DNA from: Sphingomonas aliaeris
GTDB lineage: Bacteria; Pseudomonadota; Alphaproteobacteria; Sphingomonadales; Sphingomonadaceae
Assembly: GCF_016743815.1 (NCBI RefSeq)
Contig: NZ_CP061035.1
Location: 498,501 to 562,500 of the forward strand
Direction of reading: 5' to 3'
DNA length: 64,000 bases
Part shown: positions 31,773-60,791 of the stretch, in pieces
Layout of the letters: each line of letters starts with the position of its first letter
Position numbering within the stretch: position 1 is the first letter of the stretch
Translations under genes and position numbers: made by a program
The notes under the pieces: generated by a model
Database searches by the model: none
Seen by the model: only the letters and a program-made list of their open reading frames with translations
Told to the model about the DNA's origin: nothing

Positions 31773-31790
31773 TAGCACGCTAGCTTACGA
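31773..31790. promoter_or_regulatory. 18-bp palindromic operator, site 1
   Basis: TAGCACGCTAGCTTACGA matches 15 of 18 positions of TGGTAMGCYRGCKTACCA. It ends 12 bp before the ATG of the acyl-CoA synthetase at 31803, in the divergent tetR region, a position suited to repression. Confidence 0.7.
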
Positions 31791-31802
31791 AAAGGATTGG
31801 CG

Positions 31803-33329
31803 ATGGACGCATTGCGGTCATGGGCGGAACGGCAGCCAAATAAACTCGCCGCAGCGATGGCGACCTCTTCGGAGCAACTTACATATGCCGAACTCGATCA
31901 GGAAGCGGATCGCGTTGCATGCATGCTCCAGGGCTTGGGAATCCCCGAAGGTGGCACCATTGCCTTGCTGCACGAAAACAATCTGCGAACGCTCAGCTTG
32001 TGGTGGGGCGCCCGTCGCGCCGGCCTGTACTATGTGCCGCTGGGTACCTCGCTACGCCCTGCCGATCTTGCCTTCATTGTAGAGGATTGCGCCGCATCCG
32101 CGGTTTTCGTCACCCGAGGGCTTGAGCAACAGGGGGTGGCATTGGCCGCCGAACTCGGCAATAATCAAGACACCCCGATTTATTGTGATGGTCCTTCTGC
32201 AGTGTTGAAGGACTTTTCCATCTTACTTGAGGGTTCATGCGTGAAACCTCGCCCTGCCGCTCTATTCGGCCGGGAGATGATCTATTCATCCGGTACAACC
32301 GGCCGGCCAAAGGGCATCCGACGCGACCTTTCGTCGGTGGAAAATGCTATGGTCTTGCCGGAATTGGAACGCCGGATGCGGCAGGTGTACCAGATCGACG
32401 AACGGACGATATACCTGTCTTTGGCGCCGCTGTATCACGCCACAGGCCGTTTTCTGAACCGTGCGATAGAGTCCGGCGGTAGCGTCGTGATCCTGCCGAA
32501 GTTCAATCCTCAGGACGCCCTGGCAACAATCGAGAGGTTCGCCGTCTCGCACACCCAATGGGTGCCCACCATGTTCAGCCGGTTGCTGGCGCTGCCGGAG
32601 GAGATACGTAGCCGATACGATCTTTCGAGCCACAAGGTCGCATTGCACGCGGCTGCGCCGTGCCCGATACCTGTCAAGCGAGCGATGATCGAATGGTGGG
32701 GTCTGATAGTAGACGAATATTATGGCGGGTCCGAGAATGCCGGAGTCACATTTATTTCCGCACGTGAATGGCTTGAACGACCCGGCTCGGTCGGACGATC
32801 GATTACCGGCAGGATACATATCCTGGCGGATGACGACACCTTTTCGGAACTCCCGGTCGGACAAACCGGCTTGATATATTTCGAAGGTGGTCTGAACTTC
32901 CAGTATACCACGGGGGGTGATACCCCATCGGTTCGCGGTGATCTGTCGACTTATGGAGATCTGGGTCATGTCGATGAAGATCAGTATTTATTCATCAGCG
33001 ACCGGAGGAGCGATCTTATAATATCAGGCGGCGTCAATATTTATCCAAAAGAGGTAGAACTTGTAATCGAGACATATCCTTCGGTCAGGGAGGTCGCCGT
33101 GATTGGTGTTCCGGATCCGGAATTTGGACAGCAAGTCAAGGCTGTCGTCTGTATGGCCAACGACATTGAGGATAGGCCGTCCCTTGAAAGGGCATTGATG
33201 CAATTCTGTCGTGAAAATCTCTCGAGTATAAAGTGCCCTAAAGGCATCGTTTTCATCGACGAGCTTCCACGTAACGAAAACGGCAAGCTGCTGAAACGCA
33301 CATTGCGCGACCGGTTCTCGGCCCCCTGA
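31803..33329 (+). CDS. AMP-dependent acyl-CoA synthetase (ligase 1)
   Basis: The 508-residue adenylate-forming enzyme has the P-loop YSSGTTGRPKGIRRD (about residue 162), EYYGGSENAG, the hinge region YLFISDRRSDLIISGGVN and the C-terminal catalytic Lys in NENGKLLKRTLRD. Such enzymes activate carboxylates to acyl-CoA through an acyl-AMP. AAGGA lies six bases before the ATG; a TTG two codons upstream is less likely. The gene heads a plus-strand run with an MFS transporter and a second ligase, and an operator site lies just before it. Confidence 0.92.
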   Translation: MDALRSWAERQPNKLAAAMATSSEQLTYAELDQEADRVACMLQGLGIPEGGTIALLHENNLRTLSLWWGARRAGLYYVPLGTSLRPADLAFIVEDCAASAVFVTRGLEQQGVALAAELGNNQDTPIYCDGPSAVLKDFSILLEGSCVKPRPAALFGREMIYSSGTTGRPKGIRRDLSSVENAMVLPELERRMRQVYQIDERTIYLSLAPLYHATGRFLNRAIESGGSVVILPKFNPQDALATIERFAVSHTQWVPTMFSRLLALPEEIRSRYDLSSHKVALHAAAPCPIPVKRAMIEWWGLIVDEYYGGSENAGVTFISAREWLERPGSVGRSITGRIHILADDDTFSELPVGQTGLIYFEGGLNFQYTTGGDTPSVRGDLSTYGDLGHVDEDQYLFISDRRSDLIISGGVNIYPKEVELVIETYPSVREVAVIGVPDPEFGQQVKAVVCMANDIEDRPSLERALMQFCRENLSSIKCPKGIVFIDELPRNENGKLLKRTLRDRFSAP

Positions 33330-33381
33330 GGGTCTGCTCTGCCCGACAATTAATATGTTGCAACGAAAAATCTGCCCGATA

Positions 33382-33399
33382 AAGTACGCTAGATAACTA
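33382..33399. promoter_or_regulatory. 18-bp palindromic operator, site 2
   Basis: AAGTACGCTAGATAACTA matches 13 of 18 positions of the motif and lies 32 bp before the MFS transporter start. Confidence 0.55.
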
Positions 33400-33431
33400 T
33401 CGGCAAATTCAATGCCGTTCGGAGAGGCGGC

Positions 33432-34760
33432 ATGATCAGCGCGCAATCAGAGATACCCCGTCTGACCAACCGAACCTGGTTGATGACCGTGCTCGTTGGG
33501 GTGTACGCCTCGAATTTCGTTGACCGAATGATCCTCAATGTCCTGCAACAGCCGATCAAGGCGGAGTTGCACTTGCAGGACTGGCAACTCGGCATGCTGA
33601 GCGGAACCACTTTCGCCTTCTTCTACGCCTTTCTCGGGCTGTACGTCGCGCGGGTTGCGGAACATGGCGATCGTACGAAGGTGGCTGCGGCCTGCATCTT
33701 GCTGTGGTCGGTCATGACAGCCATTTGCGGGTTCGCCACGCAATTCTTTCACCTGCTTTTGTTGCGAATCGGCGTGGCGGTTGGCGAGGCCGGTGCGACG
33801 CCGACCGGGCAAAGCCTGATTTCAGATTATTACGAACCGGAAAAGCGCGCCGGTGCGCTGGCGATTTTCCAATCGGGGAACACGCTGGGACACGTGTTGG
33901 GTGCCGTCCTGGGCGGCGTCGTCGGACAGGCGTGGGGCTGGCGCTGGGCCTTCATCATTGCGGGCGCGCCTGGGCTGATCCTTGCCGCGCTGATGCTGTT
34001 TACCATCCGGGAGCCGCGCCGCATGGCGGGCGCCCGCGAGCCGGTCCCCGATCTGAAAGTCGTCGCCAGCGCGCTGTTCGGCAAGCGGACCTTTCGCTGG
34101 ATGGCACTCGGTACAGCGGCCACGCTCTTCGCCTCCTATTCGATTTCGAGCTTTATCTCCCCGCACTTGATGCGCTCCTACGGCGTCAGCCTGCAGACCG
34201 CCGGTCTGTTGGGGGGTGTGGGGGGCGGTTTGATGCTGGGCGTCGGGACCCTGATCGGCGGTTTTTCCGCACAAGCGCTCGCTCGCTCTGATCGTTCCTG
34301 GTTACTTCGTGTACCTGGAATCACGCTGTTGGCTGCAGGCCCACTCTGCGTGCTGACGTTTTCCGGGCTTGCGCTGGAAGTGACGATCACCGCGTTTTTG
34401 CTGATGAATTTATGCGTCGGCACATTCCAGGGGCCGGTGTTTGCCATCAATCACTCGCTCGTATCGGCACGGATGCGTGCCACGGCAAGTGCGATATTGC
34501 TTCTGTTGATCACGCTCGGCGGATTAGGTCTCGGGCCTTTGCTGATTGGCATCGCCAGTGATCGGTTGGCCTCGATGTCGTTTGGGGGCGAAAACTTCGC
34601 AACGGTTTGCGCCGGCGGTTCAAGTCCACTCGAAGCCTGCGCTCTCGCGTCCGCAGAAGGACTCAGGCTGGCATTGATCAGTTGCTGCCTCGTCTTCGCG
34701 TTCGCCGGGATTTGTTTTCTTCGCAGTACGCGCACCATTGCCGCCGATGTACTGGACTAA
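33432..34760 (+). CDS. MFS transporter (spinster-like)
   Basis: The 442-residue protein has about 12 membrane helices. Family signatures include NFVDRMILNVLQQPIK in helix 1, the loop 2-3 region YVARVAEHGDRTKV, and RIGVAVGEAGATPTGQSLIS in helix 4-5. It belongs to the group seen in sphingomonad aromatic and steroid clusters and probably moves an organic acid across the inner membrane. GGAGAGGCGG precedes the ATG. It lies between two acyl-CoA synthetases, 20 bp before the second. Confidence 0.9.
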   Translation: MISAQSEIPRLTNRTWLMTVLVGVYASNFVDRMILNVLQQPIKAELHLQDWQLGMLSGTTFAFFYAFLGLYVARVAEHGDRTKVAAACILLWSVMTAICGFATQFFHLLLLRIGVAVGEAGATPTGQSLISDYYEPEKRAGALAIFQSGNTLGHVLGAVLGGVVGQAWGWRWAFIIAGAPGLILAALMLFTIREPRRMAGAREPVPDLKVVASALFGKRTFRWMALGTAATLFASYSISSFISPHLMRSYGVSLQTAGLLGGVGGGLMLGVGTLIGGFSAQALARSDRSWLLRVPGITLLAAGPLCVLTFSGLALEVTITAFLLMNLCVGTFQGPVFAINHSLVSARMRATASAILLLLITLGGLGLGPLLIGIASDRLASMSFGGENFATVCAGGSSPLEACALASAEGLRLALISCCLVFAFAGICFLRSTRTIAADVLD

Positions 34761-36902: not shown

Positions 36903-39900
36903 TTAGAATTTCTGGCTGACCCCGAGCTTCACGGTTGCGCCAAGCGGGGACGCGGTAAACGGGTCGTAATTCTGGTCGAGTCTTGCAAACGGCGGATTTC
37001 TGTTAAAGACATTCTGACCGGTGATGGCCACGGTCGTTCCGCTGGGCAGATTTACGCGATACGTGACATCAATGGTTGGGAACGCCGCCAGATTTTTACC
37101 GCCGGTCACCGACGATCCGGCGAGATTCGCCGTGTTGGGCCCGAATATTGCAGCGCCGCGCTGATCCGTGTATTTTCCGATATAATTCAGCTGTAGGCGA
37201 AGTGCGTGAATCCCGCCCTCATATTGTAAAAACGCCTGACCCTTAAGCTTGGGTAGAGGGTAGGCCGTAGTCTGATAGTTGAGAAGCCCCGCGGCATCGA
37301 AGGCGGGCTGAACCACGATTCCTTCAACGGTCTGGTCCGCAATCTTGTACTCGAACGTATAAGAGCCGTTCGCACCGATCGTGGCATTACCTCCACCGAC
37401 AGGAGTCTTGAACTGGGCTTGGAAATCGACCCCGGACGTCCGCACGTCTGCCGAATTGATAAGGAATGTGCGCAGGCGTTGAACATTGGCTACACCGCAG
37501 CCAGCAGCGCTGAACGTAAAGCGGGCCAGAAGGTTGGCGAAAGCCGGATTGCTACAGTTTGCGGTTCCAGACGCGCCGAACACGGCATTGACTATGCCTT
37601 GTACCGGTTCAGACTCGAGCGGCCCCTTGAAATCGTATCGCCAGTAATCGATGCTGGCGGTTAATCCGCCGGCGTCGACGATCACACCGCCGTTATATGT
37701 GGTCGCATTTTCCGGTTTGAGTTCAGGGTTGCCGACGACGTCGACCGCACGGAACGTCCCGTTGATGCCTTGAAGGGTCGTCAGTGTTCCCACCAGTGAC
37801 TGGGAGGGCGGTGATCGGAAAGTCGTTCCTGCACCGCCGCGAAGCGAAAGCCAGTCGTTTATTTTGATTTTGATACGCGCCTGTGGATCCAGGGTGGAAC
37901 CGATAACACCACGATAATCTTCGTAGCGTGCCGAAAGCTGAACGTTGATGAATGACGTGATCGGGAGCTGCAGTTCCACGAATCCCGCATAGACATCGCT
38001 TTGGCTGGCGCGATCGAAGTCCGATCCGATAAAACCGAGACCTCCGGTTTGTATCTGGCAGGTGGCAGCAGGATTCAAAATCCTCCCCGGACATGGGTAT
38101 ACGCCGAGGCTGCGTGTCGCACTGTATGCGATGCTGTAGGTGTTCTTGCGGTACTGCCCACCGACGGCAAAGCCGGTGTCGCCACCAGGCAGTTGCAGCC
38201 CGGATTTACCACTGATCACAGCATCGACGACGTAGAGCGCTGTGCGACTATGGGCCCGCGTAGGCCGATAGAAGTTCGCGATGGTCGCGCTATCATTGAT
38301 CAGTCCAGCGCCCGGTGTGAGGTCGTAACCGGCAGGATTTCTAATGCCTGCGTAGTTGGCATTCGACACCCCGGTGATCGTGTTCCCTGGAATACCCGTC
38401 GAAAACGGATTGAAGAATGTGCAGCCGTTCTTACCAGCAAGCGCTGTGATCTGAGCCGGCGTTAGCACGGCACGCGATGCGGTGGTGGCATAGGCACAAT
38501 TTGGTCCGCCAAAACCCGCCAAGGCATTCTGGAGTAAGTCGACAAAGTTGTCGTTGCCGTCGACCCATCGATCGTACTGCGAATATGTCCCGCCCAGATC
38601 CATGCTGATATGGGGGGCAAGGTCGTACGTCAGGCCGGCGGTCAACCGTACTGACTCGGACTCCCGTCCGGCCCGGGCGGACCCTCGGTCGTTGTCCGTC
38701 GCGAATAACGGATTTCCGCCGACGAGAAACGGGCGGAATAATACCGGAAGCGAAGTGGCAGGCGAAACAGGTAGGCCCGACGCATCGATGTTGCAGCCAG
38801 CCGATGCTCCATAGGTCGTGCAATAGTCGCGAAGCGCGGGAGAATAGGTCGGAATCACGTACATCCCCGAGCCCCCGCCCTGCGCGTTCGCGGAGGGCGC
38901 CTGGGTGGGCAAAACGCTGGGGGTGGTCGAATAGAGCGCTCGACTCCAACCGTAGAGCGCCGACAGGTTAAGCTTCAGGCTGTCTGTCAGGTCGAACTTC
39001 GCATCGAGATAAGCTTGGTACCTATTTTCCGGATTCACCAGATTTGTGTATAAACCATACTGTGTAGAGCAGCGATCCGTCGTCGAGCCGGTCAAACTGC
39101 GAAACCCGCCAAGCGACGTGCATCCGAGATCGGCGCGGTAGGCGGATCCGCCGGTTGGTCCGTTGAAATCGAAATTACCGGGGCTACCCCCTCCGGTATA
39201 TCCGCCCTGTGGATTGTCGGCGTAAGGCCGTGTAGTGTAGTCGCGATCGATACTCTCTAGCGTAGAGCGGTGTTGATAGCCGAATGCCGCCAGGAACGTA
39301 AAACCGTCGCCACTGTGACCGAAGCTTATTGCGCCATCATAGTCGCCTGCGGACCCCCGGATATGTCGATAGGATCCAGACGCAAGAAAGCCTTCTTGCT
39401 CGCGCGTGATAAAATTGACCACGCCCCCGATGGCGTCCGAACCGTACGTCGCCGCAGCGCCGTCCTTCAGAATCTCGATCCGGCCGATCGCACCCGACGG
39501 CAGTAAGTTTACGTCGACGGCTGGTATGTTCAATCCAGCATTCACCAGACGCTTTCCGTTCAGCAAAACGAGCGTTCGTGCGGGCCCCAAACCGCGAAGA
39601 TTGATATTTGCGACACCCTCCGCACCGTTGGCGCGTGAGTCTCCTTGATTGGATTCGCCGACGACTCCGCTCGATACGGAAAGATTCTTTATGAGGTCGA
39701 GGGCGGACGGCGATCCCTGGTTCTGCAATTCGCGTGCGCCGATCACATCCACTGGCACTGCGGAATCCTCTCTGGACCCGCGAATCAACGAACCGGTTAC
39801 GATAATGTTTTCCGTACCGGAGTCAGCCGTATCGGGCAGTGGCTCCGGATCGACAGGTAGCTGGCCGGCGATCTGGCTATCAGCGTTCACGGCCGGCTGT

Positions 39901-40010
39901 GAATTCTGTGATCCCGGCCCGGGGGTGCCGATTTGCGCCGATGCGGACGAATGCCAACCGATAACCCATACAGCCGCACTTGTGCATAACAGTGTCCGCA
40001 CCATCATCAT
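36903..40010 (-). CDS. Large TonB-dependent receptor of the catabolic island
   Basis: The 1035-residue protein starts at a triple ATG (MMMVRTLLCTSAAV) with GGGGATGG upstream. It has a signal peptide ending SASAQ, the TonB-box-like ENIIVTGSLIRG, and the plug motifs VNLLPSGAIGRIEILKDGAA and TYGSDAIGGVVNFITR. The barrel ends in LGVSQKF. This subtype is abundant in sphingomonads. An operator-like site 68 bp upstream links it to the island, so it may import the pathway substrate. It is divergent from the second receptor. Confidence 0.9.
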   Translation of the reverse strand: MMMVRTLLCTSAAVWVIGWHSSASAQIGTPGPGSQNSQPAVNADSQIAGQLPVDPEPLPDTADSGTENIIVTGSLIRGSREDSAVPVDVIGARELQNQGSPSALDLIKNLSVSSGVVGESNQGDSRANGAEGVANINLRGLGPARTLVLLNGKRLVNAGLNIPAVDVNLLPSGAIGRIEILKDGAAATYGSDAIGGVVNFITREQEGFLASGSYRHIRGSAGDYDGAISFGHSGDGFTFLAAFGYQHRSTLESIDRDYTTRPYADNPQGGYTGGGSPGNFDFNGPTGGSAYRADLGCTSLGGFRSLTGSTTDRCSTQYGLYTNLVNPENRYQAYLDAKFDLTDSLKLNLSALYGWSRALYSTTPSVLPTQAPSANAQGGGSGMYVIPTYSPALRDYCTTYGASAGCNIDASGLPVSPATSLPVLFRPFLVGGNPLFATDNDRGSARAGRESESVRLTAGLTYDLAPHISMDLGGTYSQYDRWVDGNDNFVDLLQNALAGFGGPNCAYATTASRAVLTPAQITALAGKNGCTFFNPFSTGIPGNTITGVSNANYAGIRNPAGYDLTPGAGLINDSATIANFYRPTRAHSRTALYVVDAVISGKSGLQLPGGDTGFAVGGQYRKNTYSIAYSATRSLGVYPCPGRILNPAATCQIQTGGLGFIGSDFDRASQSDVYAGFVELQLPITSFINVQLSARYEDYRGVIGSTLDPQARIKIKINDWLSLRGGAGTTFRSPPSQSLVGTLTTLQGINGTFRAVDVVGNPELKPENATTYNGGVIVDAGGLTASIDYWRYDFKGPLESEPVQGIVNAVFGASGTANCSNPAFANLLARFTFSAAGCGVANVQRLRTFLINSADVRTSGVDFQAQFKTPVGGGNATIGANGSYTFEYKIADQTVEGIVVQPAFDAAGLLNYQTTAYPLPKLKGQAFLQYEGGIHALRLQLNYIGKYTDQRGAAIFGPNTANLAGSSVTGGKNLAAFPTIDVTYRVNLPSGTTVAITGQNVFNRNPPFARLDQNYDPFTASPLGATVKLGVSQKF

Positions 40011-40078
40011 CCATCCCCTATCGCCATACTCTGCTGCAACTCGAGCGACTTGCCGCGTCTTATTAGATCGCCAGGCAA

Positions 40079-40096
40079 TAGTGTGCCTGCTTACCT
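40079..40096. promoter_or_regulatory. 18-bp palindromic operator, site 11
   Basis: TAGTGTGCCTGCTTACCT matches 13 of 18 positions of the motif and lies 68 bp before the minus-strand TonB receptor start. Confidence 0.5.
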
Positions 40097-40514
40097 GTTT
40101 TGTCAATTCGGCGTATCTTTTGGCGAGCGAGCGTTCGCTCCAGCGTCCGTCTAGACATCATACCGACTTGGGACCCGGAGCAGTGCTCCGGTCGAAAAAT
40201 AGGGCTCGCATAGACATTTGGCACGCAAGTGCGTGAGGACGGTGCGGCAGGTCGATGCGCCGGCGCACGCCGATACCAACTCAAGGGGGGCTGCCATGGA
40301 GAGCAGACTATGGCGCACCAATTAGTGCTGTGGAGGTGGGGCTGGCGCGGTCGACCGATGCGCCGCCATCGGGTTGTCTACGATCCCGATCACGTCCCAA
40401 AAGTTGCCACCGCGCCGGACGGTTTGGGCCCGAATAGTTTCGGCTTCACGCCCGAGGCTGTCTAGCTGTTCGCATCTAAGCCTCGTCAGGAAGCGTCTCA
40501 ACGCCCTTGACAAC

Positions 40515-40532
40515 TAGTAACCCTGCGTATCA
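40515..40532. promoter_or_regulatory. 18-bp palindromic operator, site 10
   Basis: TAGTAACCCTGCGTATCA matches 14 of 18 positions of the motif and lies 42 bp before the plus-strand TonB receptor. The rest of the 564-bp divergent region (40011-40574) holds no supported gene. Confidence 0.6.
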
Positions 40533-45787: not shown

Positions 45788-45805
45788 TAGTATGCTGGCT
45801 AACTT
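45788..45805. promoter_or_regulatory. 18-bp palindromic operator, site 3
   Basis: TAGTATGCTGGCTAACTT matches 13 of 18 positions of the motif. It lies between the divergent Gfo/Idh gene and the SDR at 45826. Confidence 0.6.
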
Positions 45806-46719: not shown

Positions 46720-47046
46720 ATGGATCGGGAGCAACCGGTGCCGCAGATAATGCTCCCGATACCATCGATCGCGGTCGGCCGGTCTGCGGTCGTCGATGTT
46801 GACGGGACCCAGATACTGTTATGCCGGACCGCCGCCGGACTACATGCCACGCGGGGCACATGCCCGCACCAGAACAAGTCGCTGGAGGGCGCGCGGGTAC
46901 GCGGCGTACTGGTGATGTGCCCGTGGCATGGGGCCATGTTCGATCTGGATACCGGGACGTCGCGGTCACCGCAACTCACGGATCGACCGTTAAGAATCTA
47001 TCGGTGCGTCGAGCAGGACGGCGAGGTGATGATCGACCTCGACTGA
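46720..47046 (+). CDS. Rieske-type ferredoxin
   Basis: The 108-residue protein has one Rieske 2Fe-2S site, CPHQNKSLEG and CPWHGAMFDLDTG, with two Cys and two His as ligands. It resembles ferredoxin components of ring-hydroxylating oxygenases and probably feeds electrons to the Rieske oxygenase at 48017-49414. It converges with the flavodoxin-like gene, with 4 bp between stop codons. The start is uncertain; GTG at 46738 is an alternative. Confidence 0.87.
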   Translation: MDREQPVPQIMLPIPSIAVGRSAVVDVDGTQILLCRTAAGLHATRGTCPHQNKSLEGARVRGVLVMCPWHGAMFDLDTGTSRSPQLTDRPLRIYRCVEQDGEVMIDLD

Positions 47047-47889: not shown

Positions 47890-47907
47890 ACGTGCGCTTG
47901 CGTACTA
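47890..47907. promoter_or_regulatory. 18-bp palindromic operator, site 4
   Basis: ACGTGCGCTTGCGTACTA matches 13 of 18 positions of the motif, 109 bp before the Rieske oxygenase start and 209 bp before the divergent flavodoxin-like start. Nothing else was recognised in the 336-bp gap. Confidence 0.55.
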
Positions 47908-48016
47908 GATACAGGTTCATTATGTCAATGTCGCAACGTTGGAATCGTGCGGTAAGCGCATGGGAACCGGTGAGCTGCAAACGCCTCGAAGCGTAGCCTT
48001 GCGAAGGAGAGAGAGT

Positions 48017-49414
48017 GTGAAGATCGACGTTACCGCGATTCAGAAGGGTGCCGTCACATCGGTCAGCCCGCTCTACTCGGACCTGCTGAAAACGGATACG
48101 CGTGTGCCGCACCCCGCGTTCGCCGCCACCGGCGAGTTCATCGTCGACGGCGGCCCCGTGCCGCGCAGCCGCTACATCGATCGCGCGTTCGCCAAACTCG
48201 AGATGGATCACCTTTGGATGAAGACCTGGCAGGTCGTCGGACGCGAGGAGGATATTCCCGAGATCGGCGATCGCTTCGTCTACAACGTCGGCAACAAATC
48301 GTTCATCATCGTTCGAACGGCTGAAAACAGCGTCAAAGCGCTGTACAACAGCTGCCTGCATCGCGGCACCCGCCTATGTGCCGGCGAGGGCGCAGGCCCG
48401 GTCATCCGCTGTCCGTTTCACGGTTGGACGTGGAACGCCGATGGCAGCATCAAGGAGTTGCCGGGCCGCTGGGACTTCCCGGAGGTGACGGACGAGAAAT
48501 TCCGTCTGCCAGAGGCGCAATGCGCGGTCTGGGGAGGCAACATCTTCATCAATCCCGATCTCAACGCGGGCCCACTGGAGCCGGCACTCGGCATCCTGGT
48601 CGATCACTTCAAGGATTACGAGTTCGCCGACCGATGGACCGCGGTCCATGTGCGCAAGAAGGTGCGCGGCAATTGGAAGCTTGCGGCCGAAGCATTCCTG
48701 GAAGGCTGGCATCTGAGCGAAACGCACAGCCAGGCGCAGTCTTTCAACGGCGACAGCAACTCGCAATACGACATCTGGGAGGATGACGACGCCCAAATCA
48801 GCCGTTCGATCACACCATCGGGCGTGCCGAGCCCGGAACTGGGCGAGGATGCGTCCGTACGTCAGGCGGTGATCGACCTTATCCACGCGGTCACGCCTCC
48901 GGGCATGGAACTGCCCAACTTCGAGCAGGTGGAAACGATCGACCGCGCTTATGGCGCAGAGCATCGTCGCCGCGTGTTGAACGCGATGACGGGGCGAGAC
49001 AGCTCCGACGCGTCCGACGCCTGGATGCTCGATGCTGCGCAATATTACATGTTTCCCAACTTCTTCCCGTGGCTGGGGGAGGGCGCGCCGCTCTGGTATC
49101 AGTTCATGCCTTATGGCGATGATCCGGCCGAATGCATCTTCGAAGTGCGATTCCTTCTGCCGATGCCAGCGAACGGAGAAAGGCCGCCCAAGTCTCCGGT
49201 CGTCGAAATTGACTTCGACGAGACGTTCCGCAGCCAGAATGCGGGCTTCGGCCTGTTCGACGAGGTATTCGACCAGGATATGTCGAACGTGCCCCTGATC
49301 CAGAAGGGTTGCGAAACCGGATCGCCCGACAGCAAGTACGTATATTTCGGCACCTATCAGGAGTGCCGCTTGAAGGCACTTCATGCCCGTTTGGCAAAGA
49401 TGGTCGGCGTTTGA
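48017..49414 (+). CDS. Rieske non-heme iron oxygenase, alpha subunit
   Basis: GTG at 48017 follows AAGGAG and yields 465 residues. The Rieske centre reads CLHRGTRLC and CPFHGWTWN (about residues 113-140). The mononuclear iron site is suggested by NWKLAAEAFLEGWHLSETH (about residues 215-235). The family oxygenates aromatic rings or demethylates and hydroxylates alicyclic substrates. No beta subunit gene is present, so it is probably a homo-oligomeric KshA/VanA-like or carnitine-type enzyme. The Rieske ferredoxin at 46720 is the likely partner. Confidence 0.92.
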   Translation: MKIDVTAIQKGAVTSVSPLYSDLLKTDTRVPHPAFAATGEFIVDGGPVPRSRYIDRAFAKLEMDHLWMKTWQVVGREEDIPEIGDRFVYNVGNKSFIIVRTAENSVKALYNSCLHRGTRLCAGEGAGPVIRCPFHGWTWNADGSIKELPGRWDFPEVTDEKFRLPEAQCAVWGGNIFINPDLNAGPLEPALGILVDHFKDYEFADRWTAVHVRKKVRGNWKLAAEAFLEGWHLSETHSQAQSFNGDSNSQYDIWEDDDAQISRSITPSGVPSPELGEDASVRQAVIDLIHAVTPPGMELPNFEQVETIDRAYGAEHRRRVLNAMTGRDSSDASDAWMLDAAQYYMFPNFFPWLGEGAPLWYQFMPYGDDPAECIFEVRFLLPMPANGERPPKSPVVEIDFDETFRSQNAGFGLFDEVFDQDMSNVPLIQKGCETGSPDSKYVYFGTYQECRLKALHARLAKMVGV

Positions 49415-49462: not shown

Positions 49463-49710
49463 CTGTTGCCTGTGCCGGCGGCGACTGCGCCACGACCCAT
49501 CTATTCTCGCGATCGTCATTCGTTCTGCACGAAGGCGCTGAGGGATTGGCTGCGTTGAGCGTTCACGAATCGCCGCGCATGCTGCCCCGCCATCAATCGA
49601 GCGCCGAAGCCGACTATCCCGGCGCGGCATCTTGTCTTCCACGTAAGCACGGTATTGGCCGTCTCACCGAAAGCTTGCGCTGGACAACGCTACAGACGGC
49701 CTTGCAAATA

Positions 49711-49728
49711 TAGTACGTAGGCGTATCA
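49711..49728. promoter_or_regulatory. 18-bp palindromic operator, site 5
   Basis: TAGTACGTAGGCGTATCA matches 14 of 18 positions of the motif and lies 51 bp before the FAD dehydrogenase start. The remaining 49463-49779 stretch holds no supported gene. Confidence 0.65.
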
Positions 49729-49779
49729 TATCGGTGTCATTGAAAGCACCCGGATTGCCGGGGCAGGCGGAGAGCGAGC

Positions 49780-51204
49780 ATGGCGGACTTCGATGTAATC
49801 ATAGTGGGCGGTGGCGGCGCAGGGCTGTCGGCGGCCATCGAGGCGACGGAGGCCGGCGCGTCCTGCATCGTGCTGGAGGCGGATACCAAGTTGGGCGGCG
49901 CGACTGCGCTGTCGGCAGGCGTGTTCTACGCCGCCAATACCTCGGTGCAACGCGAGGCGGGAATCGCCGATGATACCGCTGACGCGATGTTCGAATATGT
50001 CATGGCGGTCAATCAATGGGCGGTAAAACCTGACATCTTTCGCATCATTTGCGATGAGAGCGGGCCGACGATTGAGTGGTTGCGCGGGCTGGGCACGCGC
50101 TTCCCGCCCCAATTCCTCGTCAAGTCGGGCGTCGAGAGCGTTGCGCGCGGGCATTCGAGCGAGGGCGCGGGCGGCGGCATCGCCGATGCGCTGATCAACA
50201 AGGCCGGCGCACTCGGTATCGAAACTGCGCTGGACACGCGGGTCGAGCGCCTGCTGGTCGAGGACGGTCGCGTCGTCGGCGTGCGGGCGGGGGGCATGGA
50301 CCTGCGCGCACCGGTGATCATCGTCACCACCGGTGGCTTTGGCAACAGCGCGACGATGCGAGAGAAGCACTTCCCGAGTGCGGCACAGCATGGCGAATGG
50401 ACCTGGGCGGTGCATGATCCCGCTCCGTTCATCCTGGGCGATGGACTTACGATGGGCGAGCAGGTCGGGGCCGCGATCGTCGGTCACGACACCGGGCTGG
50501 TGCTGCCGACATCGGGTGTCGGCAAATTTGTCGAGGCATTTCTGCCCCCTTGGGTGATGCTGGTCAATGAAGAGGGGCGGCGCTTCGTCCCGGAGGTCGC
50601 GGCTTATACGATCTGCGGCTATCTGATCAACGAACAGACCAATGCGCATGCCTATGCCATTTTCGACGAACCGACGCTGATCGAGGCGAGCAACGACGTC
50701 AGCTACCTCGATCCCTACAATTCCGGGCTGGCGACACCGACCTGGGAAGAACGCACGATCCGCTCGCGGCTCACCGAAGGAAAGGTGTTCAGCGCGCCAG
50801 CTCTGGAGGCATTGGGCGAGCAATGTGGCGTCGACGGCGTGGCTCTCGCCGAGACCGCGCGGCGTTACAACGAAGACATCGCCGAGGGCATTGATCGGCA
50901 ATACTTCAAGAAGGCCAAGAAGTTGTTCCCCGTGGCCAACGCCCCTTTCTATGCGGTCGAAGTGCGCGCGGCGATTATCGGCGTGACCGGTGCCGGGCTG
51001 GACGTGGATCGCGAATGCAGGGTGCTCGACGGAGAGGGGCGGACCATTCCCGGCTTGTACGCTGCGGGCGAGGTGCTGGGTGTCATTCACGGACGGCGCT
51101 ACGCCGGCGGTGGGCTCAGCATCGGGCCGGCGGTCATCCTGGGACGCAAGGCGGGGCAGAATGCGGCGATCGCCGCGCGCCAGGCCGCGTTGATCGACGC
51201 TTGA
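49780..51204 (+). CDS. FAD-dependent oxidoreductase (fumarate reductase/ketosteroid-dehydrogenase-like)
   Basis: The 474-residue protein has the N-terminal FAD motif DVIIVGGGGAGLSAAIEA, the GGATALSAG region, and the C-terminal FAD segment GLYAAGEVLGVIHGRRYAGG. This is the FAD_binding_2 family, including 3-ketosteroid delta-1-dehydrogenases, fumarate reductases and related desaturases. It is shorter than typical KstD, so I do not assign that name. It could introduce a double bond next to a carbonyl. GGAGAGCGAGC precedes the ATG. The next gene starts inside its stop codon. Confidence 0.87.
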   Translation: MADFDVIIVGGGGAGLSAAIEATEAGASCIVLEADTKLGGATALSAGVFYAANTSVQREAGIADDTADAMFEYVMAVNQWAVKPDIFRIICDESGPTIEWLRGLGTRFPPQFLVKSGVESVARGHSSEGAGGGIADALINKAGALGIETALDTRVERLLVEDGRVVGVRAGGMDLRAPVIIVTTGGFGNSATMREKHFPSAAQHGEWTWAVHDPAPFILGDGLTMGEQVGAAIVGHDTGLVLPTSGVGKFVEAFLPPWVMLVNEEGRRFVPEVAAYTICGYLINEQTNAHAYAIFDEPTLIEASNDVSYLDPYNSGLATPTWEERTIRSRLTEGKVFSAPALEALGEQCGVDGVALAETARRYNEDIAEGIDRQYFKKAKKLFPVANAPFYAVEVRAAIIGVTGAGLDVDRECRVLDGEGRTIPGLYAAGEVLGVIHGRRYAGGGLSIGPAVILGRKAGQNAAIAARQAALIDA

Positions 51205-51991: not shown

Positions 51992-52009
51992 AGGTTTGCT
52001 GGCGTACTA
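51992..52009. promoter_or_regulatory. 18-bp palindromic operator, site 6
   Basis: AGGTTTGCTGGCGTACTA matches 14 of 18 positions of the motif, 176 bp before the SDR start at 52186 and inside the 211-bp gap that separates two gene groups. Confidence 0.6.
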
Positions 52010-53103: not shown

Positions 53104-53334
53104 ATGGCTACCGAAGTATTGCTGCCCAAACTGGGCTTCTCGATGAACGAGGGTGAACTTGTCGAGTGGATGGTGGCGGACGGCGCGCAAGTAACCGCCG
53201 GCGAACCCCTGTTCGCGCTGGAGAGCGATAAATCGACCAACGAGGTCGAAGCGCCCGCCTCCGGCACGCTGAAAATCCTCAAGCAGGCGGGCGAGACATA
53301 TGAAGTCGGTACGGTCATCGGCGAGATCGGGTGA
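53104..53334 (+). CDS. Free-standing lipoyl-domain protein
   Basis: The 76-residue protein is a complete biotin/lipoyl-attachment domain: LPKLGFSMNEGELVEWMV at the N-terminus and the modification Lys in ESDKSTNEVEAPASG at about residue 42. Glu-Ser-Asp-Lys fits lipoylation rather than biotinylation. It normally forms the N-terminus of 2-oxoacid dehydrogenase E2 subunits. Here it is a separate protein whose stop overlaps the start of the E2 catalytic-domain gene (TGATG). GGGGACG lies upstream. Confidence 0.9.
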   Translation: MATEVLLPKLGFSMNEGELVEWMVADGAQVTAGEPLFALESDKSTNEVEAPASGTLKILKQAGETYEVGTVIGEIG

Positions 53335-54089
53335 TGCGTGATGTCCCGTCGATCCTGGCAGGACTGGCCCCGATCCCGGATGCCGACTTCGCCGAATTCG
53401 GCGACGTCGAGGTCGCAGCCCTGTCGAAGATCCAGCAGCTGACCGGCGCGTTCCTCGGGCGTAACTGGGTCACGATTCCCCATGTCACGCATCATGACGA
53501 GGTCGACGTCACCGAAGTCGAAGCGCGCCGTATCGCCTGGAATGCCGCCAATCCGTCATCCAAAGTCACGCCGGTCGCATTGGTCGTGTGTGGCATGGCA
53601 CGCGCGCTCGCCGAACATCCCAAGTTCAACAGTTCGCTAGGCGCCGACGGCAAGACCATCGTGCAGAAGCGCTATATCAATATCGGCGTGGCGGTGGATA
53701 CGCCCAAGGGGCTGCTGGTGCCCGTGCTGAAGGGCGTCGATGGCAAGTCTCTGGTGGAAATTGCGGGAGAACTGGCTGCCACGGCAGAGAAGGCCCGCAA
53801 CCGGGGATTGCCTATGTCGGAGATGTCGGGGGGTAGCATGACGCTGTCGTCGCTTGGCCATATCGGCGGCACGGCCTTCACGCCGATCATCAACGCGCCG
53901 GAAGTTGCGGTGTTGGGTGCACTGGCAATCCAGCAGCGGCCTGGCCCGGGGATCGACGGCGGAATAGAATGGCGTAAGATGCTACCGCTGTCGCTCAGCT
54001 ACGACCACCGCGTCATCAACGGCGCGGACGCCGCACGTTTCGTCCGGTCGGTGGGCGCGGCGATGGCCAATCCCGCGCTGTTCGGATGA
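53334..54089 (+). CDS. 2-oxoacid dehydrogenase E2 catalytic domain (acyltransferase) without lipoyl domain
   Basis: The 251-residue protein starts MRDVPSILAGL and aligns only with the trimer-forming catalytic core of E2 acyltransferases (EVAALSKIQQLTGAFLGRNW, IPHVTHHDEVDVTE, SYDHRVINGADAARF). The active-site His lies in DHRVINGA; Asn at the last catalytic position also occurs in some pyruvate-type E2. There is no clear peripheral-subunit-binding domain. No E1 or E3 gene is in the window. It probably transfers an acyl group from the separate lipoyl protein to CoA, but its partner enzymes are unknown. Confidence 0.88.
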   Translation: MRDVPSILAGLAPIPDADFAEFGDVEVAALSKIQQLTGAFLGRNWVTIPHVTHHDEVDVTEVEARRIAWNAANPSSKVTPVALVVCGMARALAEHPKFNSSLGADGKTIVQKRYINIGVAVDTPKGLLVPVLKGVDGKSLVEIAGELAATAEKARNRGLPMSEMSGGSMTLSSLGHIGGTAFTPIINAPEVAVLGALAIQQRPGPGIDGGIEWRKMLPLSLSYDHRVINGADAARFVRSVGAAMANPALFG

Positions 54090-56686: not shown

Positions 56687-57721
56687 TCAGGCGTCGCCGA
56701 TGAAAATCAGCTTCTTGCCGCTGTTCGTGCCGGCAAAGAGGGTTTCGAGCGCCCCTGTAATCTGGTCGAAACCGGGTTCGATATCTTCGTCATAAGCGAG
56801 CGCGCCGTCGTCGATCAGGTCGGACAGCGCATCGATCGCGGCGCCGAAACGTGCGACGTGATCGAAGATGTAGAAGCCGCTCCATGTCAGCACGCGTGTG
56901 AGGATTTCGCGCTCGGGACGCCAGCCAGCGGGCGGGGGTGACCAGTTGGCCGTGGCGGCCGTGCCGCATTGGATGATGCGGCCGTGCTTCGCCATCGCAC
57001 GGATCGCATGGTCCGCGATCCAACCGCCTGTATTGTCGAAATAGATCGAGAACCCTGTCGGCGCGGCGGCGGCAAGAACTGTCGGGAGATCGATACTCTT
57101 GTAGTTGAACGCCGCGTGGTAGCCGTAGCGCGACGTGCATCGTGCGACCTTTTCGTCGCTGCCGGTCAGGCCGATAACGCGGCTGCCCTGCGCGCGGGCG
57201 ATCTGCCCGACGACGCTGCCGACTGCGCCCGCCGAGGTGGACACCAAGACGGTATCGTCCGGTCCGGGTGGTGCAAGATCGGCAAGGGCGAGCCAGGCCG
57301 TAACGCCCGGCATGCCCAGTACCCCCGCATAGGATGAGGCTGCTGCGCGGGGGATGGGCACGTGCGAAAGAAGATCATCGCGCGTCGCGGCAGCGAAATC
57401 CTGCCAGCCGAGAAAGCCATAGACGAGGTCGCCGGGCTTGATGGTCGCCTCGCGACTCTCCTGTACGACGCCCACGGAAAGGGCACGCATCGGCGCGCCC
57501 AGAGCCATGACCGCCGGGTTGGCCGCCCAGCCGCGCTGTACCGGATCGGCCGACAGATAGAGGTTGCGCACCAGGAACTGGCCGTCGCTGATCACCGGCA
57601 CGGCATCGCTGACGATATCGAAGTCCGTAGCCAACGGCACGCCATCGGGCCGGCGTCCGAGCACGACGCGGCGGTTTTTGCCGGGAATGGTATATTTGGG
57701 AATCACGGCGTGGGCAGCCAT
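56687..57721 (-). CDS. NADP-dependent oxidoreductase of the MDR superfamily (prostaglandin reductase/CurA-like)
   Basis: The 344-residue protein has an N-terminal GroES-like domain (NRRVVLGRRPDGVP and LYLSADPVQRGWA) and a cofactor-binding Rossmann motif VSTSAGAVGSVVGQIA at about residue 160. No zinc ligands are seen. The family reduces alpha,beta-unsaturated ketones or enones. ATG at 57721 overlaps the YciI gene by 19 bp. GTG at 57706, which forms a GTGA overlap with the YciI stop, is an equally good start. Confidence 0.9.
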   Translation of the reverse strand: MAAHAVIPKYTIPGKNRRVVLGRRPDGVPLATDFDIVSDAVPVISDGQFLVRNLYLSADPVQRGWAANPAVMALGAPMRALSVGVVQESREATIKPGDLVYGFLGWQDFAAATRDDLLSHVPIPRAAASSYAGVLGMPGVTAWLALADLAPPGPDDTVLVSTSAGAVGSVVGQIARAQGSRVIGLTGSDEKVARCTSRYGYHAAFNYKSIDLPTVLAAAAPTGFSIYFDNTGGWIADHAIRAMAKHGRIIQCGTAATANWSPPPAGWRPEREILTRVLTWSGFYIFDHVARFGAAIDALSDLIDDGALAYDEDIEPGFDQITGALETLFAGTNSGKKLIFIGDA

Positions 57722-57999
57722 TCACCGATCGCCGGGCGAATTGCCACGATCTGCTCCGTGCCGGCGAAGATCCCCGCCGCCGTGAACGGGTCGCCTGCGA
57801 TCAACGCCTGTGCCGCTGCCAGATCGGACGTTTCGATCAGGAAACTGCTGCCGCATGGCCGGTCCTCGTCGAGCATCGCGCCGGCCACCTTCACGACGTC
57901 CCGCCGGGCCGCCCAATAATCCAGATGGTCCTGCCGATGCGCAATTCTGAGATCGAGCGCGCCGGGGCGGTCTGGCGCAAGGATCAGGAAATAGGGCAT
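57703..57999 (-). CDS. YciI-family protein
   Basis: The 98-residue protein is a complete YCII ferredoxin-like domain: MPYFLILAPDRPGALDLR, the conserved HLDYWAA with His, GSSFLIE and AGDPFTAAGIF with Asp. The putative His-Asp pair is kept. Family members are small and mostly uncharacterised; some act as dehydrochlorinase-like or muconolactone-isomerase-like enzymes. GGAGAG precedes the ATG. It heads the operon with the enone reductase and hydratase. Confidence 0.88.
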   Translation of the reverse strand: MPYFLILAPDRPGALDLRIAHRQDHLDYWAARRDVVKVAGAMLDEDRPCGSSFLIETSDLAAAQALIAGDPFTAAGIFAGTEQIVAIRPAIGEWLPTP

Positions 58000-58032
58000 G
58001 ATACTCTCCGCGTCGCAAGCGATTCAGCTTGA

Positions 58033-58050
58033 TGGTAAGCCAGCGTACCA
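58033..58050. promoter_or_regulatory. 18-bp palindromic operator, site 7 (best copy)
   Basis: TGGTAAGCCAGCGTACCA is the most symmetric copy and was used to set the consensus. It lies between the divergent YciI (33 bp) and enoyl-CoA hydratase (50 bp) genes and could control both. Confidence 0.75.
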
Positions 58051-58100
58051 ATAAGAGTGTTTCGTGGGAAGGTGCTTTCGACGCCTGAAGGGGAGATGAG

Positions 58101-58898
58101 ATGGATCAGTCACGCTACAAGGCGCTGAAAATCGAGCGGACCGGCCGTGTGCTGACGATCGCGATCGACCTGCCGGACAAGGCGAATGCCGTTACGCACG
58201 AGTTGCACGAGGAAATGGCGCGCGTCTTCGACGATGCTGCCGACGATCCCGACAGCGATGTGATCGTGCTGACCGGCGCAGGGTCGGTTTTCTGTGCCGG
58301 CGGAGATATGAACTGGCTGGCCGACGAACTCCGCGAGGGTCTTTCGCCGTTCGTCATTGAAGCGCGCACGATGAAGCGCATCGTCCACTCGCTGCTGGAT
58401 TGCCCCAAGCCCGTGATCGCCAAGGTCAATGGCGATGCGATGGGCTTCGGCGCGACCATCGCGCTGTTGTGCGATGTGGTATTCGCGGCAGAAGGCGCGC
58501 GTTTCGCCGATCCGCACGTCAAGGTGGGACTGGTGGCGGGGGACGGAGGTGCGCTGATCTGGCCGCAGTTGATTGGCTTCGGCAAGGCCCGCCATTACCT
58601 GCTGACCGGCGACGCCATCGAGGCTAGCGAGGCCGAGCGATTAGGATTGATCGCCTTTGCGGTTGCGCCGGATGCACTGGATGACGCGGTCGCGAAATAT
58701 ACCGACCGGATGGCGCGGGGCGCGCAGACGGCAATCCGCTACACGAAGGTGACGACCAACATCGCGCTGAAGCAGTTGCTCACATCGGTGTTCGAGGCGG
58801 GGGTCGCCTATGAAGGACTGTCGCGCCATACCGACGATTATCGCGAGGGCGTTACCGCGTTCCTGGAGAAGCGACGGCCCGGATTTACCGGGCGCTAG
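58101..58898 (+). CDS. Enoyl-CoA hydratase/isomerase family protein (2)
   Basis: The 265-residue crotonase-fold protein has TGAGSVFCAGGDMNWLADEL and KVNGDAMGFGATIALLCDV, which form the oxyanion hole, and PHVKVGLVAGDGGALIWPQL. GGGGAGATGAG precedes the ATG. It belongs to the group next to hydratases acting on branched or cyclic enoyl-CoA. It faces away from the YciI operon, with an operator site between. Confidence 0.9.
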   Translation: MDQSRYKALKIERTGRVLTIAIDLPDKANAVTHELHEEMARVFDDAADDPDSDVIVLTGAGSVFCAGGDMNWLADELREGLSPFVIEARTMKRIVHSLLDCPKPVIAKVNGDAMGFGATIALLCDVVFAAEGARFADPHVKVGLVAGDGGALIWPQLIGFGKARHYLLTGDAIEASEAERLGLIAFAVAPDALDDAVAKYTDRMARGAQTAIRYTKVTTNIALKQLLTSVFEAGVAYEGLSRHTDDYREGVTAFLEKRRPGFTGR

Positions 58899-59059
58899 GG
58901 GAGGGGCCGTCCCGCGCGGCAAGCGTTCGGCAGCGCATTGACGGAGCGGTTCGGCGCAATGCCGCGAAAAACAGACGTCGGCGCTTATGCTGTCGCCTCA
59001 GTGTTTTGGATCGGCATAGCGGTTTAGCAGGTTCGGTGCGCTTGCGGTTCCGGGATCGC

Positions 59060-59623
59060 CTACAGATCGTCCTCCGCGGATTTCAGCAGACTACCGAATT
59101 CCTCGGTTTTTCCGTTCAGCGCGGCTTCCTCGTGGATATCCTTGAGATTGAGCTTTATCTTGAACATGACCTTCTCGGCGATCTTCGCTTCCTCGGCCGA
59201 AACGCCGCGCATAATGCGTTTGTTCGCTTTCGAGGCGACAGCGATCATCAACCGGATCGTCTCATAGCCCTGTTCGGTGATGAATACCCGTCGTGCGCGT
59301 CCATCGCTACTGTCCGCCCGGCGCTCGATATGCCCGGTCGTCTCCATGCGCTCCAGCAGGCCGCCGGCGGTCACCTTGCCTATCTCGAGCAGGCGCGCGA
59401 GGTCGACCTGGGTCATGCCCATATTGCCGCTGCGGGACAGTGCACTCAGCATCGCCCATTGCGAGCGAGTGATGCCGTACGGCCGCATAATATCATCCAT
59501 AATGATGCGGCGCAGTCGTGAAACGTCGTGGATGAGGTATCCGAAGCGGAATTGTTTTGCGGACGGGCGCCGGACCGGCTCAGCTTCTCCATCTTCGACA
59601 CTTAACGTAACTTTGGTATCCAT
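59060..59623 (-). CDS. MarR-family transcriptional regulator
   Basis: The ATG at 59623 gives 187 residues; a GTG ten codons earlier is possible. The winged helix-turn-helix is complete: ITRSQWAMLSALSRSGNMG, TQVDLARLLEIGKVTAGGLLE and the wing with HIERRADSSDGRARRVFIT. MarR proteins often sense aromatic acids or their CoA esters. It converges with the hydratase at 58101 and diverges from the hydratase at 59884. It is the second candidate for the protein that binds the 18-bp palindromes, or it may control only its neighbours. Confidence 0.9.
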   Translation of the reverse strand: MDTKVTLSVEDGEAEPVRRPSAKQFRFGYLIHDVSRLRRIIMDDIMRPYGITRSQWAMLSALSRSGNMGMTQVDLARLLEIGKVTAGGLLERMETTGHIERRADSSDGRARRVFITEQGYETIRLMIAVASKANKRIMRGVSAEEAKIAEKVMFKIKLNLKDIHEEAALNGKTEEFGSLLKSAEDDL

Positions 59624-59844
59624 GTTTGCGCGCTCACTACTTTGACGAGCCACTTGATATGACAGCCTCGATTGAGAGGCAATCCGCCGCGCACCGCGGC
59701 CTACCGTTTAAATCACATTCTGATTGAGCCGATAACGGCAAACACCTCGTATTACCGATATTTCGTCAGCCCTTTAGTTATGATTTTCGTTCGAGTCCGA
59801 AACATGGATCAAGCTGCAGGCATTGACACGCAGCGGCTTTGAAA

Positions 59845-59862
59845 TAGTAAGCCTACATACCA
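59845..59862. promoter_or_regulatory. 18-bp palindromic operator, site 8
   Basis: TAGTAAGCCTACATACCA matches 14 of 18 positions of the motif. It lies 21 bp before the hydratase start at 59884 and 221 bp before the marR start. Confidence 0.65.
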
Positions 59863-59883
59863 TCCTCAAAGAAAGGAACGGCG

Positions 59884-60714
59884 TTGGGTGTCAAGGCCGA
59901 CGATATAATCGAATATGAGGGGTTTGGCGTCTCGGTTTCCGAAGGCGTACTGACGATAAGCCTGAACCGCCCGGAGCTTGGCAATGCGTTGCCAAGCGCG
60001 GCCATTCCCCAGCTCGATGCGCTGTTTCGTCAGATCGGCGCGCGGGCCGATGTTCGGGTCTTGCTGATCCGTGGCGAAGGTGCCTCCTTTTGCGCGGGGG
60101 GCGACGTCAAAGGGTTCGCCGAAACGATCGATCATTCGCCAGAGGTGCGACGCACGGATTATTTTGCGCGAATGGACCGTGCCCGATCGCAGATGGAGGC
60201 TTATCTCGCCTTGCAATGTCCGGTGATCGTCGCTTGTCAGGGTGCTGTGGCCGGGGCGGCCGTGGCCTATCCGTTGGGCGCCGATATCGCGCTGGCGGAG
60301 CCGGGTGCGCGCTTTGTCTTCCCGCATCAGCGCCTGGGTCTGCCACCTGACGGCGGGCTGACCTATCTGCTTCCTCGCATCGTCGGCGTGCGCAAGGCGT
60401 CGGAACTCGCGCTGACGGCGGCGACGATCGATGCGGCGGAGGCGCTGAGGATCAGGATCGTCAGCCGGATCGTGCCGGCTGACGTATTGCAGCAGGAAGC
60501 TTTTTCGATCGCGCGGCGCATTGCTGCGGCTCCGCGCGGCGCGGTTCGCCGCGCACGGGCGCTGTTGCGCGAGTCGCTGGCGCACACTGCAAGCGAGCAG
60601 CTCTCGGCGGAACGCGATGCGATCGCGGATTCGGTGGCCGAGCCCGATTTCGAGGAGGGCGTACGCGCATTCATGGACAAGCGGCGCGCGGTTTTCCCCT
60701 CGACTCGAGAGTGA
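59884..60714 (+). CDS. Enoyl-CoA hydratase/isomerase family protein (3)
   Basis: A TTG start with AAAGGA seven to eight bases upstream gives 276 residues. RGEGASFCAGGDVKGFAE and CQGAVAGAAVAYPLGADI form the crotonase oxyanion hole, and PHQRLGLPPDGGLTYLLPRI follows. Asp replaces the more usual Glu in the P-D-G-G segment, a feature of isomerase-like members. It is encoded 118 bp before the acyl-CoA dehydrogenase, each with its own operator-like site. Confidence 0.88.
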   Translation: MGVKADDIIEYEGFGVSVSEGVLTISLNRPELGNALPSAAIPQLDALFRQIGARADVRVLLIRGEGASFCAGGDVKGFAETIDHSPEVRRTDYFARMDRARSQMEAYLALQCPVIVACQGAVAGAAVAYPLGADIALAEPGARFVFPHQRLGLPPDGGLTYLLPRIVGVRKASELALTAATIDAAEALRIRIVSRIVPADVLQQEAFSIARRIAAAPRGAVRRARALLRESLAHTASEQLSAERDAIADSVAEPDFEEGVRAFMDKRRAVFPSTRE

Positions 60715-60773
60715 TGCGATTGGTGCGGGGTTTGTGGCGGCACATCGTGCCGGTTGCGCGACCGATCGGAAGA

Positions 60774-60791
60774 TAGTAAGCAAGCGAACGA
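60774..60791. promoter_or_regulatory. 18-bp palindromic operator, site 9
   Basis: TAGTAAGCAAGCGAACGA matches 14 of 18 positions of the motif and lies 41 bp before the acyl-CoA dehydrogenase start. Confidence 0.6.

Follow-up and report, generated by a model that had tools for sequence, protein, structure and literature searches.

Are the catabolic operons scattered over one part of the Sphingomonas aliaeris genome controlled together, and if so, by which regulator? The window analysed here is a 64 kb stretch (NZ_CP061035.1, positions 498,501 to 562,500) of the largest contig (C1) of the 4.26 Mb host genome. A preliminary description of this DNA had reported eleven copies of an 18-bp palindrome in front of the operons and had joined them into one local regulon. 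All eleven palindromes lie where they were claimed, and the numbers of positions agreeing with the original consensus are reproduced exactly (15, 13, 13, 14, 13, 13, 14, 14, 18, 14, and 14 of 18, in order), which confirms the overall observation of a recurring palindrome upstream of the cluster operons. The sites are concentrated in the cluster, recur upstream of orthologous genes in other genomes, and are associated with a MarR rather than a TetR protein. We read them as operators bound by the MarR/SlyA-type regulator that the cluster itself encodes (59060-59653), and assign this predicted binding a probability of roughly 0.8. The predicted operator sites, in window coordinates, are as follows.

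31773..31790: site 1, between the TetR gene (minus strand) and the AMP-ligase gene 31797 (plus strand); leave-one-out rank 10-11
33382..33399: site 2, upstream of the MFS transporter gene 33432; supported by match count and leave-one-out scoring
40079..40096: site 3, upstream of the TonB receptor gene 36903-40106 (minus strand)
40515..40532: site 4, upstream of the TonB receptor gene 40575, whose Novosphingobium ortholog likewise has a site
45788..45805: site 5, between the Gfo/Idh oxidoreductase gene (minus strand) and the SDR gene 45817 (plus strand)
47890..47907: site 6, upstream of the Rieske oxygenase gene, about 110 bp before its likely GTG start at 48017
49711..49728: site 7, upstream of the FAD dehydrogenase gene 49780
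51992..52009: site 8, upstream of the genes for SDR 52099, lipoyl domain 53104, E2 53331, and ligase 54086
58033..58050: site 9 (18/18), between the YCII gene 57703 (minus strand) and the enoyl-CoA hydratase gene 58101 (plus strand)
59845..59862: site 10, between the MarR gene (minus strand) and the enoyl-CoA hydratase gene 59884 (plus strand)
60774..60791: site 11, upstream of the acyl-CoA dehydrogenase gene, whose likely start is ATG 60833 and not TTG 60521

The form of the motif requires revision. The TGG...CCA consensus first proposed is a minority form biased toward the site at 58033; the majority form is TAG...CTA, and the symmetrised majority sequence of the eleven sites reads TAGTA(A/C)GC-NN-GC(G/T)TACTA (that is, TAGTAMGC-NN-GCKTACTA). 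Scored in this form, the eleven sites are more distinct than originally claimed. The pyrimidine-purine (YR) centre ascribed to the motif is weak, and a preference for A/T extends about 3 bp outward from the palindrome on either side. Site 3 falls within the first 28 nt of the TTG-start open reading frame (ORF) 36903-40106, which we take to be over-long, placing the site probably in the 5' leader. The starts at 48017 (Rieske) and 60833 (acyl-CoA dehydrogenase) are similarly more likely than those called.

Palindromes of this kind need not be operators; where upstream DNA is rich in A/T, they could in principle be repeats or arise as accidental matches. A match of 13/18 is weakly selective by itself, as had been cautioned: at this threshold the original consensus finds 25 window positions, 15 of them intergenic (the eleven listed and four others) and 10 in coding DNA. 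At 14/18 or better there are eight positions, seven listed sites and 20580, all intergenic and none coding. Dinucleotide shuffles of the 9.85 kb of intergenic DNA (300 trials) gave on average 2.0 matches at the lower threshold (maximum 7) and 0.24 at the higher (maximum 2), and the earlier estimate that matches of 14 or more lie far above chance therefore holds. Before this count the gene models 60521-62002 and 36903-40106, both over-long, were cut back, and as a result two listed sites count as intergenic. The acknowledged circularity of a consensus built from its own sites was addressed by scoring each site with a symmetric matrix made from the other ten. Every site then ranks between 2 and 11 among the approximately 64,000 window positions, and no unlisted position outscores any listed site. 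A matrix from 79 sites of five other clusters, which were chosen with the window matrix and hence are not fully independent, places the eleven sites together with C1:568782 and C1:570143 as the top 13 of 124 kb. The best unlisted palindrome of the window (5918-5935, 14.7 bits) lies 259 bp upstream of 3167-5668, far from the cluster, and is probably a chance match.

Across the genome, the pattern WRGTAHGCNNGCDTACYW with at most two mismatches occurs at 23 places, namely the eleven listed sites, C1:568782, and eleven positions scattered over the rest of the largest contig. The twelfth site, C1:568782, follows the core operon 6.3 kb past the end of the window, and 12 of the 23 matches thus fall within a single 38.5 kb stretch. 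By our own ORF prediction, eight of the scattered matches lie inside ORFs, a ninth sits 13 nt past a predicted start, and a tenth overlaps such a start; the last is found 13 bp ahead of a second MarR gene, whose product is 32% identical to the cluster MarR, and gave the first hint to the family of the regulator. The idea of one local regulon is supported by this clustering and by the motif upstream of genes in related clusters elsewhere; the regulon extends past the end of the window. A weaker thirteenth site, C1:570143 (window coordinate 71643), scores 16.3 bits with the window matrix; it is located 1.4 kb beyond the twelfth, within an ORF predicted on the minus strand. The original consensus was also tried as a genome probe; with at most three mismatches it finds 12 places, only two of them in the window, and WRGTAHGCNNGCDTACYW was used instead.

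A scan with the Rieske protein, covering close relatives only, led to four genomes independently of either regulator: Brevundimonas sp. AAP58 (75% Rieske identity), Novosphingobium sp. 18050 (60%), a Sphingomonadales metagenome-assembled genome (MAG; 52%), and a Sinobacteraceae MAG (49%). In the regions fetched around these Rieske genes (56, 80, 160, and 80 kb, respectively), the matrix built from the window alone finds 11, 19, 28, and 13 sites above 13 bits, against means of 0.5, 1.0, 2.7, and 1.5 and maxima of 4, 5, 15, and 9 when the half-site columns were permuted 100 times. Most of these sites (8, 17, 26, and 12) are intergenic or lie between -150 and +10 bp of a predicted start. In all four clusters the counts are far above those of permuted matrices, and the sites recur along with the cluster. 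All five genomes, our own included, have a site upstream of the Rieske gene, and the upstream DNA around it otherwise looks unconserved by eye. This recurrence in other genera, the permuted matrices, the leave-one-out ranks, and the shuffles all speak against chance, and we consider it hardly credible that the palindromes are repeats or accidental matches.

Other orthologs share the arrangement, the pairings having been read from the map rather than counted by script. Four genomes have a site ahead of the acyl-CoA dehydrogenase gene; Brevundimonas counts among them only on the assumption that the start of its gene was predicted too far upstream. Orthologs of hydratase 59884 have a site in three genomes, of the Gfo/Idh gene in two, and of TonB receptor 40575 and ligase 31797 in one each; those of hydratase 58101 have one in two genomes (in Novosphingobium as the second gene) and also in Sphingobium. 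Two Brevundimonas sites, 33930 and 35490, are placed like sites 58033 and 59845. With a stricter pattern applied to whole genomes, the 56 kb cluster contig accounts for six of the seven matches in Brevundimonas, and 69 kb of one contig for 10 of the 30 in Novosphingobium. A plasmid search with the MarR protein added ten Sphingobium records named Tom... (MarR identity 61.7-62.8%), which presumably belong to tomato-root isolates. The one region examined, a 40 kb stretch of the TomTYG46 large plasmid (AP027325.1), contains the core of the cluster, with the MarR gene, eleven homologs of our cluster genes, and eight motif sites, of which one lies some 100 bp ahead of MarR. By the annotation of the record all eight are intergenic, in a stretch that is 7% intergenic; no permuted control was run there. 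Besides MarR, no feature of this stretch is named a transcriptional regulator in the annotation, in which several features are hypothetical.

Two regulators encoded in the window come into question as the binder of these sites.

59060..59653, minus strand: MarR/SlyA-type regulator, the proposed binder of all sites (Pfam MarR_2, 1.2e-12)
30914..31684, minus strand: TetR-family regulator at the edge of the cluster, without conservation alongside the motif (TetR_N, 24.3 bits; cutoff 24)

The first is a MarR winged helix protein by both Pfam models (PF12802, 48.2 bits; PF01047, 33.2 bits; each above its cutoff). It scores 64.2 bits with the NCBIfam SlyA model, for which the cutoff is 120, and is SlyA-like rather than a SlyA equivalog; its nearest solved chain is SlyA (3q5f, 4.8e-13). 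A homolog stands beside cluster genes in all five related genomes, with identities of 77-80% in Brevundimonas, 63% in Sphingobium, 57% in the Sphingomonadales MAG, 40% in Novosphingobium, and 38% in the Sinobacteraceae MAG. It is on the cluster contig in Brevundimonas, the Sphingomonadales MAG, and Novosphingobium; in the Sinobacteraceae MAG it is on a separate 18 kb contig, adjoining the ortholog of the HMG-CoA-synthase-like gene, which has a site of its own. A site lies near the regulator gene in four of the six genomes (our own, Brevundimonas, Sphingobium, and Novosphingobium, there upstream of YCII-MarR). Among 29 MarR-homolog loci of the family other than our own, some of them closely related, 10 have a site of at least 12 bits within -350 to +40 of the match (permuted matrices: mean 0.51, maximum 5, of 200). 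Wider regions around four of the closest homologs contain 3, 8, 6, and 1 sites of at least 13 bits, counts for which no control was run. The Novosphingobium sites mostly carry GTT where the others carry GTA, and the recognition helix, located by visual comparison with the aligned SlyA sequence, reads KVTLSG there, KVTAGG in our protein, KVTVGG in Brevundimonas, the Sphingomonadales MAG, and Sphingobium, and KVTLGG in the Sinobacteraceae MAG, a pattern suggestive of covariation between helix and half-site. A small YCII gene (57703-57999) accompanies the regulator: the two are neighbors in Novosphingobium and the Sphingomonadales MAG, and a single gene separates them here and in Brevundimonas. 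In Sphingobium the MarR gene is followed by a hypothetical gene of 100 residues.

The preliminary description had considered the half-sites suited to a TetR dimer and had named the MarR protein as one to test; the second suggestion gains support and the first does not. The TetR gene is divergent from ligase 31797 with site 1 between them, the palindrome length is, from general knowledge, also possible for TetR proteins, and the Sphingobium plasmid encodes a 32%-identical TetR (84.8 bits) at a distance of about 19 kb from the examined stretch. Against these points, in the four genomes with motif-bearing clusters the best match to the TetR protein scores 32.2 bits, whereas a MarR homolog is found in all five. 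Matches at 1e-15 occur in only 3 of 298 family genomes, our own included, and the loci of the other two have no site above 9.6 bits. Neither the 56 kb Brevundimonas cluster contig nor the 40 kb Sphingobium stretch encodes a TetR_N protein at an E-value of 0.001. We rejected this TetR as the binder, as an orthologous partner does not accompany the motif wherever it occurs, and consider it very unlikely to be the master regulator with the palindromes as its operators. Given the TetR near the Sphingobium stretch, a TetR may have a second, lesser role.

Several observations weigh against assigning the sites to the MarR protein or against the specificity of the pattern. Reversed patterns outnumber the patterns themselves in the host genome (82 versus 23 for WRGTAHGCNNGCDTACYW; 39 versus 12 for the original consensus), and in the four foreign genomes the reversed pattern has 9, 27, 24, and 59 matches versus 7, 30, 11, and 52, such that the control is equal or higher in four of five genomes, our own among them. 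We would guess that the reversed pattern is a poor control, since it places CG where the motif has GC; its totals show all the same that it is the clustering, not the total count, that carries weight. This clustering is weaker in the MAGs, in which 5 of 11 matches in one and at least 2 of 52 in the other are on the cluster contig. In the Sinobacteraceae MAG, MarR and Rieske genes are on different contigs. The Sphingobium cluster was found through MarR, and its MarR is thus not independent evidence. Neither MAG MarR gene has a good upstream site (best, 11.5 and 10.6 bits), and 19 of the 29 family loci lack a site of at least 12 bits near the gene. Only one of the 11 closest homologs (40-49% identity; L018-L028) has such a site and one just misses it (11.7 bits), and loci L022-L032 have no site near the gene, with at most 6.4 bits. 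The apparent covariation of helix and half-site is based on a single genome, Novosphingobium. The search for regulators in the foreign clusters covered MarR homologs and TetR_N proteins, and unrelated TetR_N proteins do occur within or close to the clusters of Novosphingobium and both MAGs.

The genes that the sites precede were assigned to families by Pfam, with operon membership read from gene order.

31797..33329, plus strand: AMP-dependent acid-CoA ligase, predicted target
33432 with 34607: MFS transporter and ligase, site-bearing operon
36903 and 40575: TonB receptors, site-bearing
44638 (minus strand) and 45817 (plus strand): Gfo/Idh oxidoreductase and SDR, site-bearing
47939..49414, plus strand: Rieske oxygenase alpha subunit, predicted target
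49780..51204, plus strand: FAD_binding_2 dehydrogenase, flavocytochrome c/ketosteroid-dehydrogenase-like, predicted target, with hydratase 51015
52099: SDR with free lipoyl domain, E2, and ligase, site-bearing operon
57703 (minus strand): YCII with zinc dehydrogenase and MaoC, site-bearing operon
58101 and 59884: hydratases, site-bearing
60521: acyl-CoA dehydrogenase with the HMG-CoA-synthase-like protein, core operon, site 60774
61999..63450, plus strand: HMG-CoA-synthase-like protein of the conserved core operon, predicted target through the operon with site 60774

Past the window the core operon continues with MaoC, a CitE-like lyase, another acyl-CoA dehydrogenase, E1 alpha and beta, and BKACE. 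The 2-oxoacid dehydrogenase complex is split, with the lipoyl domain (53104-53334) and E2 core (53331-54089) in one operon and E1 alpha and beta (C1:565687-567710) about 13 kb away; the clusters of Brevundimonas, Novosphingobium, and the Sphingomonadales MAG likewise encode the free lipoyl domain as a protein of its own. An uncalled plus-strand ORF (46720-47046) with CPHQN and CPWHG motifs, identified by eye, is Rieske ferredoxin-like and might act as a partner of the oxygenase; the convergent gene that comes after it matches flavodoxin weakly. A P450 (29087-30349) without a site of its own is, among solved structures, nearest to steroid C26-monooxygenases, a likeness that offers a hint at the substrate and no more. 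In the ketosteroid, bile-salt, abscisate, and tomatine literature nothing identifies the substrate of the cluster, and the main text of a tomatine paper on Sphingobium makes no mention of MarR, Rieske, or acyl-CoA. Upstream, at 15837-19336, a LacI regulator adjoins a GH32 enzyme with a laminin-G-like domain, which suggests a separate sugar (possibly fructan) locus.

How would the regulator act? Most likely a MarR dimer would sit on each operator, over or beside the promoter, and hold about a dozen operons off, among them those for TonB receptors, the MFS transporter, CoA ligases, the oxygenase, dehydrogenases, beta-oxidation, and the core-operon genes. It probably represses its own gene as well and, by analogy with CouR, would probably let go when a substrate-derived acid or acyl-CoA of the pathway appears. 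We infer actual binding, repression rather than activation, and a ligand of this kind, and moderately favor simple repression. Repression by promoter occupancy is the most likely mode because it is the common one among MarR proteins, most characterized members being repressors (PMC4737184). The opposite possibility, that this MarR is an activator or a SlyA-like anti-silencer, finds a precedent in SlyA, which activates by antagonizing H-NS (PMC5797941), and is compatible with the variable site-to-start distances, which range from about 10 to 120 bp; we nevertheless judge it unlikely in view of the prevalence of repressors in the family and of two weak signs of promoter overlap. The first is at site 7, which is covered by a sigma-70-like match, TTGCAA-16-TATCAT (49702-49729), the only one of five sites in the scanned stretch to lie on a promoter-like match; the total of four matches versus 2.2 in shuffles is near chance. 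The second comes from 122 oriented site windows (each site counted once per neighboring gene direction; 16 of 38 annotated Sphingobium features used), in which TTGACA-like hexamers are somewhat enriched, numbering 4, 3, and 3 at -33, -36, and -31 of the site centre with a mean of 0.82 per offset, a spacing at which TATAGT in the outer part of the site would serve as a -10 box; three each also occur at -18 and -17.

The following comparisons draw on the accessible parts of the cited papers. SlyA of Salmonella and E. coli recognizes TTAGC-AA-GCTAA (TTAGCAAGCTAA), and one such site lies 22 bp ahead of the slyA gene itself (PMC5797941). The core here, TA(A/C)GC-NN-GC(G/T)TA, has the GC-NN-GC centre and the flanking TA step in common with it, although our palindrome, at 18 bp plus A/T flanks, extends further and the regulon here consists mainly of a single catabolic cluster. 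CouR, the p-coumaroyl-CoA-responsive regulator of Rhodococcus jostii RHA1, is likewise a MarR repressor of catabolic genes with an inverted repeat in four of four promoters, but its box is cATTGA-N5-TCAATg and its four promoters compare with 12 sites here (PMC4737184). Two sphingomonad MarR catabolic regulators, DesR of Sphingobium sp. SYK-6 and Saro_0803 of Novosphingobium aromaticivorans, also act at promoter inverted repeats (PMC6888825, PMC10046596); their boxes differ, however, being GTTTGTGTCACATAC with three targets for DesR (PMC6888825) and GCAATA-TATTGC with one target for Saro_0803 (PMC10046596). The steroid repressor EdcR of Caenibius tardaugens resembles our system in that local palindromes overlap promoters of a ring-degradation cluster and differs in its palindrome, TnnCnnTACnAnTnGTAnnGnnA, at four promoters, two of them with weaker sites (PMC8700777). 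An EdcR-type steroid operator was rejected for the window, as the published sequence, compared by eye, does not match our consensus. No description of the motif or regulon was found in the open-access literature, in which the longer result listings were covered in part.

Overall, an operator set that recurs with its cluster is new in its particulars and ordinary in kind. More tentatively, and at somewhat less than even odds, a single MarR may be the master switch for the catabolism of a steroid- or terpenoid-like substrate, in charge of a very large, undescribed regulon with 12 sites here and as many as 28 in one of the MAGs. In this reading the regulator and its operators would have moved jointly between alpha- and gammaproteobacteria, and the half-site would have coevolved with the recognition helix. 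An uncharacterized catabolic cluster of several genera gains a probable regulon boundary, a candidate regulator, and a testable sequence. The operator map indicates which scattered operons belong to the pathway, so that enzymes of unknown role become assignable by membership, and the MarR-operator pair is a potential biosensor once its ligand is identified.

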